The notes under the pieces were generated by a model, which saw only the letters and a list, made by a program, of their open reading frames with translations, did not search any database and was not told the DNA's origin. Positions 1-6,097 of a stretch of DNA of 6,685 nt are shown here, in pieces. This stretch comes from Myxococcales bacterium (GTDB lineage Bacteria > Myxococcota > Polyangia > Fen-1088). Positions within the stretch are counted from its first letter, which is position 1, and every line of letters begins with the position of its first letter. Position numbers and translations under genes: made by a program. Location: the NCBI GenBank assembly GCA_003153875.1, contig PMBY01000255.1:1-6685 (forward strand), in the 5' to 3' direction.

Positions 1-836
1 CAGCGGAACTGCTGCGCCTTGAAGGCCGACATCTCGACCGGCAATTCCGCGGGCGCCTCGATCTCGGGCAGGTATACAAAGCGCCAGCCGCGCAGTTGCG
101 CCCGGTACGACAGGTCCATGTCCTCGGTCAGGGTGTCGTGGTGCCAGCCACCCGCATCCACGATGGCGGAGCGGCGCCACATGCCGGCCGTGCCGTTGAA
201 GTTGAAAAAGCGGCCCGAGCGGTTGCGCGCGGCATGCTCCATGATGAAGTGCCCGTTGAGCATCAGCGCCTGCGCCTCGGTGAGCGACGAGAAATCGCGG
301 TTAATGTGCTCCCAGCGGCACTGCACCACCGCCACGGAAGGGTCGACGAAGTGGTGCACGGTGCGCTCCAGGATGTCGGGCTTGGGCAAAAAGTCGGCGT
401 CGAAAATCATCACCAACTCGCCTTTGGCCGTGCGCAGCCCGTTCTCCAGAGCCCCCGCCTTGAATCCGGTGCGATCCGTGCGGTGCACGTACTCGATGTC
501 CAGATCGGGATGGTGGCTCTTCAGGACCGCGATCGCGCGCAGGCAGATTTCCTGCGTCTCGTCGGTGGAATCGTCGAGCACCTGAATCTGAAAACGATCA
601 CGGGGATAGCGAATGGTCGCCACCGACTCAAGCAGGCGCTCAACCACGTACATTTCGTTGAACAGCGGAAGCTGCACCGTGACCGCGGGTAGCTCGGCGT
701 ACTGACCCTTGGCCTGCGGCTGCCTATCGCGGTGCTTGTAGTAGAGAAACACCAGCAGGGAACGGTGGAATCCGTAGACCGCGAGGGCCAGCAAGATCAC
801 GAGGTAGGACGCTGTCAGGACACCGGGGACATCCAT
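1..836 (-). CDS. Family 2 glycosyltransferase, cellulose/glucomannan synthase-like, membrane-anchored (C-terminus beyond window)
   Basis: Translating the minus strand from the ATG at 836 gives 278 codons before the window edge. Residues ~8-31 form a hydrophobic membrane segment, followed by a cytosolic GT-A domain. The processive GT2 signatures are present: the first Asp pair in LDDSTDET (D88-D89), KAGAL (~126-130), the metal-binding DAD (D146, D148), the TED catalytic-base motif (237-239), and QQFR at 275-278, whose next codon begins TG and so fits the Q-x-x-R-W motif. VQCRWEHINRDFS (~171-183) and FNGTAG resemble bacterial and plant CslA/CESA-type enzymes. Family members polymerise beta-linked hexoses (glucan or mannan) from nucleotide sugars and usually carry further C-terminal membrane helices, which would lie outside the window. 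The start is well fixed: upstream in frame there is no other ATG, GTG or TTG before a stop at 894-896. No clear Shine-Dalgarno is seen. The exact product cannot be told from sequence; an exopolysaccharide or cell-surface glycan is likely. Confidence 0.93.
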   Translation of the reverse strand, partial: MDVPGVLTASYLVILLALAVYGFHRSLLVFLYYKHRDRQPQAKGQYAELPAVTVQLPLFNEMYVVERLLESVATIRYPRDRFQIQVLDDSTDETQEICLRAIAVLKSHHPDLDIEYVHRTDRTGFKAGALENGLRTAKGELVMIFDADFLPKPDILERTVHHFVDPSVAVVQCRWEHINRDFSSLTEAQALMLNGHFIMEHAARNRSGRFFNFNGTAGMWRRSAIVDAGGWHHDTLTEDMDLSYRAQLRGWRFVYLPEIEAPAELPVEMSAFKAQQFR

Positions 837-869
837 CGCGCTTGAAGGTAGGACGCCAATTGTCTCGCG

Positions 870-897
870 ATTGTAATCTTGTGTGGTTTCTTGTCAG
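870..897 (-). promoter_or_regulatory. Candidate housekeeping-type promoter of the GT2 gene
   Basis: On the minus strand, CTGACA (897-892) and TACAAT (875-870) each match 5 of 6 positions of the sigma-70 -35 and -10 consensus, with a 16-base spacer. The predicted transcription start would lie near 863, giving a leader of roughly 25-30 bases before the ATG at 836. It begins about 10 bases past the stop of the gltX tail relic, so the glycosyltransferase gene probably has its own promoter and does not depend on read-through from the lipoprotein gene. This is a motif match only. Confidence 0.5.
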
Positions 898-906
898 AGA
901 CATGGG

Positions 907-1013
907 TCAGGCCTTGGCCTTCTTGAGAACGTTGGCGCACAGGCGCACCGCCGGCGGGTCATGTCCCGACCCAGCACGGACAGGATTTCAAACAGCGGCG
1001 GCGTGGCCTTGCG
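907..1013 (-). pseudogene. Relic of a gltX 3' end (last ~36 codons, frameshifted)
   Basis: On the minus strand this stretch matches the 3' end of the intact gltX at 2727-2834 with about 92 of 108 positions identical by hand alignment, including the position of the TGA stop (909-907). Before the frameshift it reads [19 protein letters not shown], against [19 protein letters not shown] in the intact gene. One base is then missing in the Arg-rich stretch around 945-957, after which the frame of LKKAK and the stop is restored only by adding the base back. Many substitutions are silent (TTC/TTT, GGC/GGT, CTA/CTG), so this copy evolved under selection as a coding sequence before it broke. It has no start of its own and cannot make a synthetase. 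It lies directly after the lipoprotein stop codon and just before the GT2 promoter, where the tail of an ancestral gltX upstream of the GT2 gene would be expected. Confidence 0.85.
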
Positions 1014-1019
1014 TGCCGC

Positions 1020-2375
1020 CTATCCGCCATCGCACGAAATGCACTTCGAGGTCAGGCTGTCGCAACGGCCGTGGTAGCCGGAGCACTCGAGCGGCGCGCC
1101 GGTGCAGGCGGCCCCTTGTGCTTTCTGGGCGTGGCAAGTGCCTGAGCCTGCGACACTGGCGGCATCACAATACAAGCCGCCCTGGCAGGAGACATATTCG
1201 CCCAGGATCGTCCCACACGGGTCACCCTCCACGCCGAAGTGATCGGTGCAGATGCCGGCCGCCGTGCAGTAGCTCTCCGCCGTGCACTCTTGGTTGCCGG
1301 GGATGCACGTGGCCCCATTCGGCTTCGCCGGCGAGCAGGTCCGGTTGCCGCTCGGCCCGGTGCAGCTGGTTCCCCATCCGCATTCGTAGTGATAGTTACA
1401 CGGGCCCGATGTCGGGCGCAGTTGGCAGACGCCAGCGACCGTGGTGGAACCGCCCACGCAGTCAGTGGGCGATAGGCATTCCGAGCCACCCGGCCCCTCG
1501 CAGGACTGACCCGCGCCGACTCTCGCGACGCATTTTCCCGGGGTGGAACCGAACATGTCTGCATTGCACGTAGTTCCGGGTTTGCACTGTTGCCCATTCC
1601 ACGGGCAGGGCGCGCCCTCGTCCAAGTACGGCAGACAGGTGCCGGTGCACGAGTTCGAAACGCCACCTTCGTCGCAGTACCCACCGTCCGCGCATTCGAT
1701 GGCTGCGGTGTCCGGGGTGATAATCGAACACGCGCCACCCAGCGGCACCTGAGGGACCAGCGCGAGCCCACAGGGCGGCCCCAGGCTGGAGGACGACTGC
1801 CCCGCTTCGCAGTCAGCGGCCGTCGGTGTCCAGGCCGCCAATGCGGAAAGGCACGCGGCGCCGGCCGCGGGGTCGTACAGGACGCGCCCCGCGGCGACGG
1901 ACTTGAGGATGCGCCCGCAGGTCATCGCGGTGAGCGACTGCAGCCAGACTGGCGGCGGCAGCGCGGATGAAACACCGTCGCGGACGTTGGCGCACGTCCA
2001 GACAAGCGGGTACATGTAGCCGTAGAAGCCAAAACAGAAGCTCTGGGCGGTGGCGGCGCTCAGGATTCCCGCATCGGGAAGATTGCTGCTGCCCGTGTTC
2101 TTCCCGCCCGCACTGCCGCCGCCGCCTGTGCTGCTTCCACCCGTGCCGCCGATGCCGCTGGTGTTGTTCCCGCCCGCGCCGCCGCCTTGGTTCTGGGCAT
2201 CAGGGGCGGCGGCAGCGTCGTGGATCTGTGGGCCGCCATCGGTGGCGCCGAGGTGTCCGAGTTCAGTCGAACTTCCCGAGCAGCCAGCTACCAGCAAAGT
2301 CGTCAAGGATGTCGTGAGAAAACACCAGGAGAAGCATTTGTTGGTCATGCTCGGCTTAGTGGGTGCAAGGCTCAT
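1020..2375 (-). CDS. Cysteine-rich predicted lipoprotein with glycine-rich linker
   Basis: The 451-residue product starts with a signal sequence ending in the lipobox LVAGC (28-32), so the mature protein would be lipidated on C32 and tethered to the envelope. A low-complexity Gly/Ser/Asn linker (~64-99) follows. From ~110 to the end the protein holds 36 cysteines by hand count, an even number that fits extensive disulfide bonding outside the cytoplasm. Recurring units such as YCD...C...GAPC and C...G.TC resemble the cysteine-rich (Dickkopf-N-like) repeats of many uncharacterised Myxococcota surface proteins. The function is unknown; adhesion, ligand binding or surface scaffolding are guesses. 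The ATG at 2375 has a weak GTGAG five bases upstream; an internal ATG at 2348 (MTNKCF) would give a more typical short signal peptide and is an alternative start. The TAG stop (1022-1020) abuts the gltX relic, so the C-terminus may have been set by the junction. The linker DNA (~2080-2200) is an imperfect GCC/GCG-rich triplet tract. Confidence 0.85.
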   Translation of the reverse strand: MSLAPTKPSMTNKCFSWCFLTTSLTTLLVAGCSGSSTELGHLGATDGGPQIHDAAAAPDAQNQGGGAGGNNTSGIGGTGGSSTGGGGSAGGKNTGSSNLPDAGILSAATAQSFCFGFYGYMYPLVWTCANVRDGVSSALPPPVWLQSLTAMTCGRILKSVAAGRVLYDPAAGAACLSALAAWTPTAADCEAGQSSSSLGPPCGLALVPQVPLGGACSIITPDTAAIECADGGYCDEGGVSNSCTGTCLPYLDEGAPCPWNGQQCKPGTTCNADMFGSTPGKCVARVGAGQSCEGPGGSECLSPTDCVGGSTTVAGVCQLRPTSGPCNYHYECGWGTSCTGPSGNRTCSPAKPNGATCIPGNQECTAESYCTAAGICTDHFGVEGDPCGTILGEYVSCQGGLYCDAASVAGSGTCHAQKAQGAACTGAPLECSGYHGRCDSLTSKCISCDGG

Positions 2376-2381
2376 GAATTC

Positions 2382-2701
2382 TCACTCGCCATCAAACACG
2401 ATGGCCTTGATTCGTGCGCGGTAGGGACTTCCGGGATAGGCCCGCAGAAAGGTACGGGCTCGCTCACCTGCGGCGGCGCGAAGAGCCGGAATGGCCGCCT
2501 GGGCTTCGATGGTGAGCGCCTCGCGCTCCTGCGCAAGTGCGGTTGTTCCCGGCGCGCCGTCGCGAAGCAGGTGAAGTGCATGGGCTGGCTCGCCAGATCG
2601 AACGCAACACTCTGCATGGGAGACGCGCGTACAGACCCAGGAATCGCAGCCAGCGCAATGCCAACTCCCACGGCCAAAGGGCGCAATGACCAACCAGTCA
2701 C
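2382..2701 (-). pseudogene. Frameshifted small secreted protein gene (TPR/YfiO-like C-terminal motif)
   Basis: Two overlapping reading frames each carry half of what looks like one protein. From a GTG at 2701, frame one gives a convincing signal peptide (MTGWSLRPLAVGVGIALAA, then a VRAS-P cleavage-like site), but after ~45 residues turns into an Arg/Pro/Ser-rich non-coding-like string. A second frame, ending at the TGA at 2382, has an implausible N-terminus but from ~2615 onwards reads SGEPAHALHLLRDGAPG, then LAQEREALTIEAQ and RARTFLRAYPGSPYRARI. That pattern (paired helices, EREAL, RAxxFLxxYPGSP) matches small secreted or YfiO-like proteins I recall from myxobacterial genomes, often near sigma-factor/FecR genes. 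A frameshift or small indel around 2600-2650 best explains this. It begins 25 bases after the gltX stop, and the second frame ends 6 bases before the lipoprotein start. A real sequence error is possible; if so, this is an intact gene of ~105 residues. Confidence 0.6.
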
Positions 2702-2726
2702 GGATTTCCAATAATCCGATCGGCCG

Positions 2727-2834
2727 TCATGGCTTGGCCTTCTTGAGAAAATCGGCGCATAGACGCAAACGGCGTCTGGTCATGTCCCGGCCCAGCACGG
2801 ACAGGGTTTCGAACAGCGGCGGCGTGGCCCTGCG
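2727..2834 (-). repeat. Direct repeat copy B: 3' end of intact gltX (partner 907-1013)
   Basis: This is the last 36 codons, including the stop, of the functional gltX. The same sequence in the same orientation recurs at 907-1013 with about 85% identity and a single-base gap. Homology stops abruptly on the 3' side: the bases following each stop codon are unrelated (2702-2726 versus 880-906). On the 5' side it fades within a few bases of 1019. The pair brackets ~1.7 kb holding the lipoprotein gene and the broken small gene. Confidence 0.85.
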
Positions 2835-4169
2835 GGCGGTGGCGGCCAGGCGCATGACCATGAACAGCTCCTTGACGTCCCACACCGCTTTCTCGGCAAA
2901 GGCGCGCGCCATAGCTTCCAGCGCCGGCGGTGAAAAGTCGCGCTGGACATCCAACGCCTCGATGAGGCCGAGCAGACACTCGGCCACGTCCTTGGCGGTG
3001 CGATTGGCGGGAACCAGTTCCTTCAGCCAAGGCGCGTGGTCGACATCGCCCGAGAAGAAGAACTCGGTCATGGGCACAAACTCGTCCAGCCGCTGGATGC
3101 GCTTGCGCACCAGTGGCACCAGGGATTTCAGATACTCGTCCGAAAGTCGCCATTCGCGCAGCCGCGCCACGATGCCGTCGTCGTCCAGGGCACGCAGGTA
3201 GTCCGCGTTCACGGCCGACAGCTTGACCAGGTCGAAAACCGGCCCGCCCAGGCTGATGCGATCGAAGGTGAACGCCTCGATCATCTCGGGCAGGGTGAAC
3301 TTCTCGCGATCGCCCGCAATCGACCAGCCCATGGTGCCCAGGTAGTTGAGCAACGCCTCGGGCAGAAAGCCGGCCGCGCGGTAATAGTCGAGCGACACGG
3401 GATTCTTGCGCTTGGAAATCTTGGACTTGTCAGCGTTGCGCAGGAGCGGCATGTGGACCCATTCGGGCGCGGTCCAGCCGAAGGCGCTGTACAGCACCAC
3501 GTGCTTGGGCGTGGAGGTCAGCCACTCCTCGGCGCGGATGACGTGGGTGATGCCCATCAGGTGATCGTCGACGACATTGGCCAAATGGTAGGTGGGAAAC
3601 CCGTCGGTTTTCATCAGGATCTGATCGTCGATCTGGGTGTTCTCGAAGTGCACGGGGCCGCGCAGACGATCCACCACGGTAGTCTGGCCCGTTTTCGGCA
3701 TGGCCAGACGGACGACAAAGGGCTCGCCCGCGGCGGCCCGCGCCTCCGAGCTGGCCTGGTCCAGACCGCGACAGTGGCCGTCGTAGCCCATGAAGCCCGA
3801 CTTGCCCTTCTGCTCGGCGCGCAGCTTGTCCAAGCGCTCGGCCGTGCAGAAGCAGCGGTAGGCCGCGCCCGCGGCGACCAGCTTGGCAACTTCGCGTCGG
3901 TAGATGTCCGCGCGCTCGGATTGGCGATAGGGGCCGTGGGGACCGCCCACGTCGGGCCCTTCGTCCCAGGAAAGCCCCACCCAGCGCAAGGCGCGCAGGA
4001 TGGCCGCCTCGGACTCCGGCGTCGAGCGCGTGCGGTCGGTATCCTCGATGCGCAAGATGAATTGCCCGCCGTGATGTTTGGCGAACACGTAGTTGAACAA
4101 GGCAATGTAGGCGGTCCCCACATGGGGATCGCCGGTCGGGGAAGGCGCTATGCGAACACGTACGGTCAT
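2727..4169 (-). CDS. gltX: Glutamyl-tRNA synthetase
   Basis: This class I aminoacyl-tRNA synthetase charges tRNA-Glu with glutamate in the cytoplasm. The 480-residue product has normal family length. The N-terminal Rossmann domain opens with [16 protein letters not shown], whose HVGT (16-19) is the HIGH signature, and [10 protein letters not shown] (39-48) is the glutamate-binding block. CFC (106-108), Y129 and C133 form a zinc-binding-type insertion as in many bacterial GluRS. KISKRKN (250-256) is the KMSKS loop. The remaining ~200 residues are the helical anticodon-binding region, ending in [20 protein letters not shown]. The ATG at 4169 is supported because the family begins within a few residues of the first conserved strand; no clear Shine-Dalgarno precedes it. 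The last ~36 codons also occur as a relic at 907-1013, so the C-terminus may be a recombinant allele. Whether it is discriminating or also charges tRNA-Gln cannot be told here. Confidence 0.97.
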
Positions 4170-4477: not shown

Positions 4478-6097
4478 ATGAAACATCCACGTTTGGCCCT
4501 TTCTCTCGCCGTTCTCTGCGTTGTACTGGCGGCTTTCTTTGAAAGCCGCCTGCCCTACACCTTTGCCGAACAAAACCAACCACCCGCAGCGAGCTTTCTC
4601 GGCCAGGTGGCCCACACCACCGACCAGAACATGTATTTCTCGTTCATCCGTCAGGCCTACGACGGAAACGTCCTCTTCAATAATCGCCTGACCGCGACAC
4701 CCAACTCCGGCGCATTCGTCAATCTTCAGTTTCTCGCCGTCGGGCGAGTCATGCGCCTGTTTCATCTTTCGGAGAACGCCGTCTACCAGGTGTGGCGCTT
4801 TGCCGGGGTCCTCTTCTTGACCCTCGGCTTCACCTTTCTTTCCCTGGTTGCTCTGCCCAGCCTCTCGAAACGGGTGGTTTCCTTGTGCGTGTTCATTTTC
4901 GGTGGCGGGTTCGGAGCGCTCTTTTCGCTCGCGGCCAACTACGGTCTTCTCTCTCGCGAGGCCGCGTTCAGACTGACGCCAGACCTCTGGTCCGGCCTGC
5001 TTCCTTTCCAGCAGCTCATGTGCAACCCGCACTTCTCCCTGCCCCATGGGCTCATGCTCATCGGGTGTGCGCTGTTTCTCCTGGCGGAGACGCGCGATCA
5101 ATCCGTGTGGCTCTACGTCGCCTCGGGAGTAATCTTCCTCGTCAATGGATTTGTCCGACCCTACGACCTCATCTCGCTCGCGGTCGTGATCCCTGTCTTT
5201 ATCGCCACCGAGGCTATCCGGCGCTTTGATTGGCGCGCCGGCGCGTTGCGCGCTATCCCGCTCGCGATTGCGTCGCCGGCGCTGGTGTATTCAATCTGGC
5301 TGTTTGAATACCATCCGATTTTCAAATACTGGTCGCAACAGGGCCACAATATCCAGTTTATGCCCCCGCCGCATATTCAGATGCTCGCCTATGGCAGCAT
5401 CGGCCTGCTGGCCATTGCGAGAATTCTTCAGTTCAGGAGCAATCCGCTGTCCCCGGTAGAGCGATTTCTTCTGGTCTGGTTCGTCGGGATCTTCTTTTGC
5501 GTTCATCTGGGCAGCATTTTTCCTGCGCTCGGGTTCAGTCCTCAAAACTGCATCCCGCTCTTTGCGCCGCTGGTGCTGTTCGCCTTCTCACTGCGTTTGC
5601 CTCTACGAGGCTTCCGCCGCGGACTGTTCATTGCTGTGGTCGCCGTTCTGCTGGCTATTGGCAATGTCGGCGGCCTGGCCCATGCTTGGCGGCCGTTCTT
5701 CAGCCCGGCCGACGCTAACAACTACTACGCCAGCACTGACGAAACGACAGCGCTTGGCTGGCTTGACAAGAACCTACAGCCAGGAGCCGTAGTGCTGGCG
5801 GTTCCGCCAGTTTCCGGACGCATCAGCAAGTACACCAGCGCCTCGTCACTGGTCGGCCATCACAGCGTAACTCCACACTACAGCGCCATACTGGCGCATG
5901 TCCGGCGCCTGTTTGCGGCCCGTCAGTTCACGCCTTTCGAACACCGCACGCTGCGCGAACTGGGGGCCGACTATCTCTTTGTCGGCCCCCAGGAACAGCG
6001 TCTGCTTGGATTTGATCCGAATGCGGCGCCGGGCCTTACGCGAGTTTTTGCCCAAGGAAGCGTGGCGATCTACAAAGTCGAATCGCAGGCCGAGTGA
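4478..6097 (+). CDS. Polytopic membrane protein, GT-C glycosyltransferase-like
   Basis: The 539-residue product begins with a hydrophobic helix (~6-21), then a periplasmic-type loop with HTTDQNMYFSFIRQAYDG (~46-63). In GT-C enzymes an acidic residue in this first loop is catalytic, making D49 a candidate. Several hydrophobic helices follow (~108-128, 133-155, 190-204, 210-224, 231-247, 256-275, 303-316, 328-350, 358-373, 382-400). The GFVRPYDLISL stretch (224-234) and the SQQG...FMPPPHIQMLAYG stretch (~286-306) recall a broad family of predicted membrane glycosyltransferases that I recognise only by pattern. From ~415 on is a soluble domain (ALGWLDKNLQPGAVVLA, LGADYLFVG, AIYKV) typical of the extracytoplasmic C-terminus of such proteins. 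They usually move sugars from polyprenyl-phosphate carriers onto lipids, glycans or proteins; donor and acceptor are unknown. The start is the first ATG after an in-frame stop region, with only a weak GAG upstream. Codon third positions appear less GC-biased than in gltX. Confidence 0.75.
   Translation: MKHPRLALSLAVLCVVLAAFFESRLPYTFAEQNQPPAASFLGQVAHTTDQNMYFSFIRQAYDGNVLFNNRLTATPNSGAFVNLQFLAVGRVMRLFHLSENAVYQVWRFAGVLFLTLGFTFLSLVALPSLSKRVVSLCVFIFGGGFGALFSLAANYGLLSREAAFRLTPDLWSGLLPFQQLMCNPHFSLPHGLMLIGCALFLLAETRDQSVWLYVASGVIFLVNGFVRPYDLISLAVVIPVFIATEAIRRFDWRAGALRAIPLAIASPALVYSIWLFEYHPIFKYWSQQGHNIQFMPPPHIQMLAYGSIGLLAIARILQFRSNPLSPVERFLLVWFVGIFFCVHLGSIFPALGFSPQNCIPLFAPLVLFAFSLRLPLRGFRRGLFIAVVAVLLAIGNVGGLAHAWRPFFSPADANNYYASTDETTALGWLDKNLQPGAVVLAVPPVSGRISKYTSASSLVGHHSVTPHYSAILAHVRRLFAARQFTPFEHRTLRELGADYLFVGPQEQRLLGFDPNAAPGLTRVFAQGSVAIYKVESQAE

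Follow-up and report, generated by a model that had tools for sequence, protein, structure and literature searches.

A lipoprotein gene cassette lies between two copies of the gltX 3′ end in a Myxococcales bacterium

The window, by which we mean the whole stretch of 6,685 nucleotides analysed here, contains an intact gltX gene, encoding the catalytic and anticodon-binding domains of glutamyl-tRNA synthetase. In its reading direction, gltX is followed by the remnant of a dispersed repeat, the 3′ remnant of a second gene, a lipoprotein gene, a second copy of the gltX end and a glycosyltransferase gene, hereafter called GT2 (Table 1). On the other flank, a gene for a 539-residue membrane protein (4478-6097) lies between gltX and a response regulator gene. 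It is present in two relatives, G016 and G021, and was not found beside gltX in G017, G019 or G020 (in G020 by DNA search only). This flank of gltX therefore varies too.

Table 1. Features of the window between and including GT2 and gltX
Feature	Position	Strand	Evidence
GT2 glycosyltransferase gene, running off the window; native gltX neighbour	3..836	-	Pfam; gltX neighbour in eight relatives
Native spacer between gltX and GT2; promoter-like site at 897-870	837..906	-	stretch also in G016
Stranded native gltX tail (relic)	907..1016	-	repeat; alignment to the empty site in G016 and G019
Intact gene for a Cys-rich lipoprotein of 451 aa	1020..2375	-	ORF; relatives; G021 copy beside gltX
Remaining 3′ part of a gene next to that of an ECF sigma factor; putative anti-sigma	2385..2627	-	tblastn against G020 and G014; operon context
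Remnant (26 bases) of one inverted end of a MITE-like dispersed repeat, just past the gltX stop	2691..2716	-	motif recurs in relatives
Attached gltX tail, completing the working gene; rare-codon cluster 2760-2777	2727..2837	-	repeat; codon use; private changes; silent divergence
gltX, glutamyl-tRNA synthetase, 480 aa, intact	2727..4169	-	ORF; Pfam tRNA-synt_1c and Anticodon_2

The gltX end at 2727-2837, hereafter called the attached tail, recurs in the same orientation at 907-1016, the relic, with 95 of 113 positions identical (84%) and one single-base gap. An automatic repeat search resolved the repeat into two ungapped blocks, 906-947/2726-2767 (83%) and 949-1016/2770-2837 (88%). The relic is frameshifted, as one base is missing between 947 and 948. 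The local alignment of the two copies scores 135, while the best of 1000 dinucleotide-preserving shuffles reached only 28, and the similarity is thus above background. The preliminary description had reported this repeat at 907-1013 with about 85% identity; its orientation and identity hold, while its extent needs correction.

How is this region organized in related genomes? We searched for GltX in 317 genomes of the class that includes an Enhygromyxa genome, and 313 of them gave a match. The closest GltX proteins among the relatives are those of G016 and G021 (96% each), followed by G017 and G019 (92%) and G020 (91%). The few organism names given among the best 120 relatives listed read “Polyangia bacterium” or “Deltaproteobacteria bacterium”. 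A search of genome contigs with the gltX alignment gave at least 80 loci, and the 80 listed were at most 60% identical. The region trees cover GT2 and the gltX body only, and in the gltX body tree G016 and G021 are grouped with only 58% support.

In G016 (locus L138) and G019 (L141), the window from position 1 to 1016 or 1018 aligns uninterrupted (93% and 87%), covering GT2, the intergenic region and the end of gltX. GT2 directly follows gltX in both genomes, with gaps of 72 and 57 bases, respectively; the gap is 271 bases in G017, 176 in G020, 153 in G018, 153 in G013, 139 in G014 and 39 in G027. None of these eight relatives carries a cassette between gltX and GT2, whereas the window does, and the gene content thus differs between two conserved genes. 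Since the relic and GT2 align without a break to the empty site of G016 and G019, the relic is, as judged from these alignments, the native gltX tail, lying at its native position and in its native direction on the far side of the cassette. The preliminary description had proposed such a native tail, stranded downstream, and had suggested searching for relatives in which gltX joins GT2 directly; both the tail and the relatives were found. Furthermore, a stretch known from G016, GACAAGAAACCACACAAGATTACAATCGCGAGACAATTGGCGTC, is kept in the region behind the relic and overlaps the promoter-like site; GT2 is therefore not severed from that site.

Next, we consider the cargo between the two tails. 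As described before, it includes a gene for a Cys-rich lipoprotein, and this gene is intact. The protein has a lipobox, LVAGC (read by eye), a Gly-rich stretch and a Cys-rich domain, and its similarity to Pfam families is only sub-threshold. A search returned 11 proteins, including that of the window (with scores for the best-sharing candidates only), and the cluster of the window lipoprotein comprises 7 member sequences on 3 contigs. When the lipoprotein alignment was searched against the 317 genomes, 23 gave a match, and only that of G021 is close (E 5e-219); the next match, in G017 (E 4e-50), is located elsewhere in the genome between other genes.

The broken frame at 2382-2711 had been taken for a small secreted-protein gene. 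Most of it instead corresponds to the C terminus of a protein whose gene neighbours that of an ECF sigma factor: by tblastn, its last 81 residues match this protein in G020 (63%) and G014 (58%). In the G020 operon, the gene for the ECF sigma factor (Sigma70_r2 and Sigma70_r4) is followed by that for a 322-residue protein and then, 6 bases past the stop of the latter, by a lipoprotein gene; the gene order is the same in G014. The 322-residue protein has no Pfam match, and we infer from its operon position alone that it is a putative anti-sigma factor. The junction GAGTGAGAATTCATGA is common to the window and G020, and the first 60 residues of the window lipoprotein are related to those of both G020 and G014 (0 of 2000 shuffles each). 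These two observations trace the cargo to the operon, and on sequence grounds it is the 3′ part of a three-gene unit of ECF sigma factor, putative anti-sigma factor and lipoprotein, cut inside the second gene. As a separate observation on the operons themselves (L173:1-2270 and L175:1161-4027), the lipoprotein leader is conserved and the remainder looks different between genomes.

At the left junction, just behind the gltX stop, lies the single end of a MITE-like repeat. Copies of this repeat in relatives are about 100-250 bp long; their inverted ends, of 31 bases each, start near CTAGTACCG, and the sequence between them is rich in CCGGNNCCGG. Its end motif gave 32 matches in 12 genomes, as compared to 1 for the reversed control; some of these matches are unrelated, and those at L222, L223, L228 and L231 look so by eye. 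Reading of 30 loci (among L212-L221 and L222-L251) revealed 12 elements with paired ends. One relative's repeat gave two microRNA matches in Rfam, both below the gathering scores. This repeat end suggested a MITE as the carrier of the cassette, and we rejected this idea, as no second end was found: even with two mismatches allowed, the 18-base core matches nowhere else in the window. A MITE is flanked by two inverted ends, in contrast to the one 26-base end remnant seen here.

Two other origins of the cargo were considered and rejected. None of 72,556 plasmid records gave a tblastn match to the lipoprotein, and the window has no tRNA or tmRNA gene, which would mark a tRNA-linked island. The window has no Rfam match at E values up to 0.5. 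Except for the repeat end, the outermost ~100 bases of the fragment have no long match among the matches listed for 21 relatives. The interval from gltX to the lipoprotein gene lacks a terminator-like site. None of the six window proteins has an integrase domain in Pfam, in agreement with the earlier statement that no integrase is recognisable.

A related arrangement exists in a second species. In G021 (L139), the same lipoprotein gene lies right behind gltX (86.5% identity over the aligned DNA), and of the upstream gene only a few bases remain. Ten bases past the lipoprotein stop is a stretch resembling the gltX tail, with 34 of 43 positions identical (79%). Its alignment to the gltX tail scores 41, which none of 1000 shuffles reached, and that to the window relic scores 33, reached by 1 of 1000; it lies within two bases of the corresponding part of the relic. 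The right junction, where the window passes from the lipoprotein stop into the interior of gltX, looks shared by the two genomes, while the left junction is not. Downstream in G021 are genes for an ECF sigma factor, a zinc-finger protein, a caspase-domain protein and an opposite-strand protein without a Pfam match, after which the contig ends. None of the four encoded proteins has an integrase domain, and no GT2 was found in G021, which has either further cargo or a rearrangement. A box like ACGAGCYYACGCACCTAACCTRGA was seen by eye near 10180 and near 14460, on either side of the ECF sigma factor, zinc-finger and caspase-domain genes (L139:10265-14424). The attached tails of the window and G021 are 84% identical, and G021 does not have the window's tail. 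As G021 shares the cassette and the right junction, but not this tail, one common donor tail or ancestral event fails to explain both cases.

Do the two tails of the window have one origin or two? As compared with five relatives, the relic has five private states (four altering an amino acid and one silent) and the deletion, whereas the attached tail has seven (one altering an amino acid and six silent). The relic has thus changed like freed sequence and the attached tail like a working gene, and the “many silent changes” noted earlier belong to the attached tail and not to the relic. The relic has dS values of 0.25 and 0.245 to G016 and G021, respectively, close to those of native genes (0.33 and 0.285 for gltX; 0.26 to G016 for GT2), while the same codons of the attached tail give 0.49 and 0.55. 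The latter values are similar to those obtained when all of gltX is compared with the outer relatives, G017 and G019 (0.41 and 0.54). Among the 90 overlapping 35-codon windows of gltX, only the last two reach such values to both relatives; against one relative, a dS of at least 0.53 is reached by 14 of 90 windows between the window and G016 and by 13 of 90 between G016 and G021. The silent divergence is therefore a modest signal, drawn from 35 codons, that the attached tail may be the more distant one.

Codon usage in the attached tail is also unusual. In the last 17 gltX codons, including the stop, GC3 is lower than in any other stretch of this length in the gene (9/17, with a gene mean of 85%), while the corresponding count in the five relatives is 12 to 15. 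Codons 465-470 read AGA-CGC-CGT-TTG-CGT-CTA (2760-2777). Five private silent changes within these 18 bases give the rare codons AGA, CGT, TTG, CGT and CTA, and the cluster is absent in the five relatives.

These patterns bear on the main rival explanation, in which the cassette arose in place: break repair or template switching would have put the operon piece into gltX while copying ~107 bases twice, leaving initially identical tails of which one decayed, and G016 would have branched earlier or would have shed the cassette when its two tails recombined. Such an event requires no gltX-bearing donor. The mosaic cargo, consisting of a repeat end, a cut gene and a whole gene, suits a repair patchwork, and the right junction in common with G021 suits one old event. 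The tail tree fully allows it as well: among 195 placements on a fixed tree (111 columns), the attached tail and the relic as sisters are within 0.001 log-likelihood units of the best placement, and the tree does not separate one origin from two. However, if the cassette and the relic came from the common ancestor of the window and G021, about nine altered codons would be expected in the relic at the age implied by gltX, and only four are seen (P 0.037 at t=0.145). An age chosen to yield the observed total of differences leads to the same expectation of about nine. We also simulated the joint pattern of at least 17 differences and at most four altered relic codons. In-place duplication reached P 0.0022 at best over nine ages, as compared to 0.09 to 0.41 for five two-origin settings. 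In sensitivity runs, its P was 0.0035, rising to 0.027 when the five clustered changes were counted once, to 0.023 when the tail rate was doubled and to 0.10 with both. Against in-place duplication, too, the relic matches the native genes in dS and the attached tail does not. We therefore consider two origins of the tails more likely, with hints in the silent changes that the attached tail may come from a more distant lineage than the relic, and we regard duplication in place as less likely.

The age of the cassette can be approached through silent divergence between the window and G021. The lipoprotein gene has a dS of 0.16 (0.115-0.215), as compared to 0.285 (0.228-0.354) for gltX and 0.486 (0.406-0.590) for the membrane protein gene; the response regulator gene, at 0.19 (0.123-0.266), overlaps the range of the lipoprotein gene. 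The tail remnant of G021 is more decayed than the relic of the window. The evidence leans toward transfer of the cassette after the two species parted; loss of the cassette in G016 by recombination between the tails is possible.

Taken together, we propose, with a probability of roughly 45%, that the cassette is a chromosomal fragment that recombined into the 3′ end of gltX, supplying a new tail and displacing the native one. The incoming DNA would have come from a related but distinct lineage and carried a gltX tail with the cut piece of the sigma factor operon. Homologous exchange within gltX would have attached the incoming tail with the reading frame kept. The other end would have joined the native gltX ~107 bases before its stop, three bases past the lipoprotein stop, and left the native tail stranded beside GT2. 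The two sides may differ in kind, with homology at one and an illegitimate join at the other; alternatively, a second exchange may have occurred inside an older tail copy, which the junction shared with G021 would allow. The lipoprotein gene, oriented as gltX is and lacking its own operon start, would now be read from gltX. No donor was found. The preliminary description had gltX rebuilt with the tail of a related strain: gltX is indeed intact and its native tail displaced, and the foreign nature of the new tail is suggested by its silent changes and by the simulation, while the tail tree fits either origin. A circle as the vehicle, also proposed there, is not needed for the insertion and finds no support.

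An error of assembly or binning that joined unrelated pieces would also place foreign DNA beside gltX. The private changes and frameshift of the relic, the independent occurrence of gltX beside the lipoprotein gene in G021 and the three contigs represented in the lipoprotein cluster make such an artefact highly unlikely.

The proposed insertion resembles several known systems. The prophage e14 of E. coli K-12 entered icd, and the duplicate of a 165-bp segment that lies on its far side differs at 12 bases, giving two amino-acid changes, both conservative (PMC11148124, PMC6379469). In e14, and in the window on our reading, the end of a housekeeping gene was supplied anew with base changes and the frame kept; in both, the old end is duplicated on the far side. 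Unlike e14, a prophage with a putative integrase in those accounts, the window carries 1.7 kb cut from a chromosomal operon, and we found no integrase. The same anatomy raises the alternative that the cassette is what remains of an integrase-bearing island, which targeted the gltX 3′ end, restored the gene with its own tail and later lost the integrase and most of its content; the G021 genes running from the lipoprotein to the contig end leave room for a larger element. Against this, no integrase domain was detected in the window or in the four G021 proteins, the cargo looks like a cut chromosomal operon, and a second match to the GltX end was obtained in just two of the 317 class genomes. We thus consider this origin improbable.

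Homologous recombination is the sole means of incorporation of minimal mobile elements, whole-gene cassettes located between two conserved genes, in the account of PMC3898611. The window likewise differs in gene content between two conserved genes and lacks mobility genes, but one of its genes is cut and a gene end is duplicated, in contrast to the whole-gene cassettes described there, which are exchanged by flanking homology. In homology-facilitated illegitimate recombination, one end is joined by homology and the other without it (PMC3240628), a process also invoked for T6SS modules whose arrival shifts older genes downstream (PMC5361080). The window would share with those modules the single homologous end, its type of join being our reading of the junctions, and the shift of old sequence downstream; the T6SS clusters, as presented in that report, displace toxin and immunity genes, whereas here the end of an essential synthetase gene was displaced. 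Finally, the phage S1249 integrates between csp and gltX of Aggregatibacter (PMC10087258). It is likewise inserted at gltX, but it sits beside the gene and uses a 49-bp att site and a phage integrase.

Does gltX serve as a route for accessory genes in general, as the preliminary description suggested? A search for the GltX end matched 210 of the 317 class genomes, and two of these, G007 and G272, gave a second match; G272 has two full-length GltX-like genes. The idea therefore gains no general support, and we see no sign of a gltX-directed route in a scan that missed the decayed remnant of G021 and lets old relics escape. A narrower version is that the unit “gltX tail - cargo - gltX tail” spreads without an enzyme of its own, by homologous insertion at an empty gltX and precise removal. 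Since the two arms of such a fragment both match the end of a gene that every relative must have, ordinary homologous recombination could insert or remove the cargo. Several observations are compatible with such spreading: the cargo and right junction occur in two species while the site is clean in G016, a relative about as close as G021, the relic shows less decay than the G021 remnant, and the lipoprotein dS between the window and G021 is lower than that of gltX, though not clearly lower than that of the response regulator. We hold it to be a speculative and rather improbable reading. If it is true, small gene sets would have in duplicated gene ends a general means of moving between related genomes without an enzyme, and the stranded tails would date each move.

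The type of insertion described here is already known in outline, and the window is a clear, well-documented example, with a related case in a second species. It offers a view at base resolution of how accessory DNA can settle in the end of an essential gene without harm: gltX still ends in a working tail, the promoter-like region stays with GT2, and the cargo comes to be oriented like a housekeeping gene.
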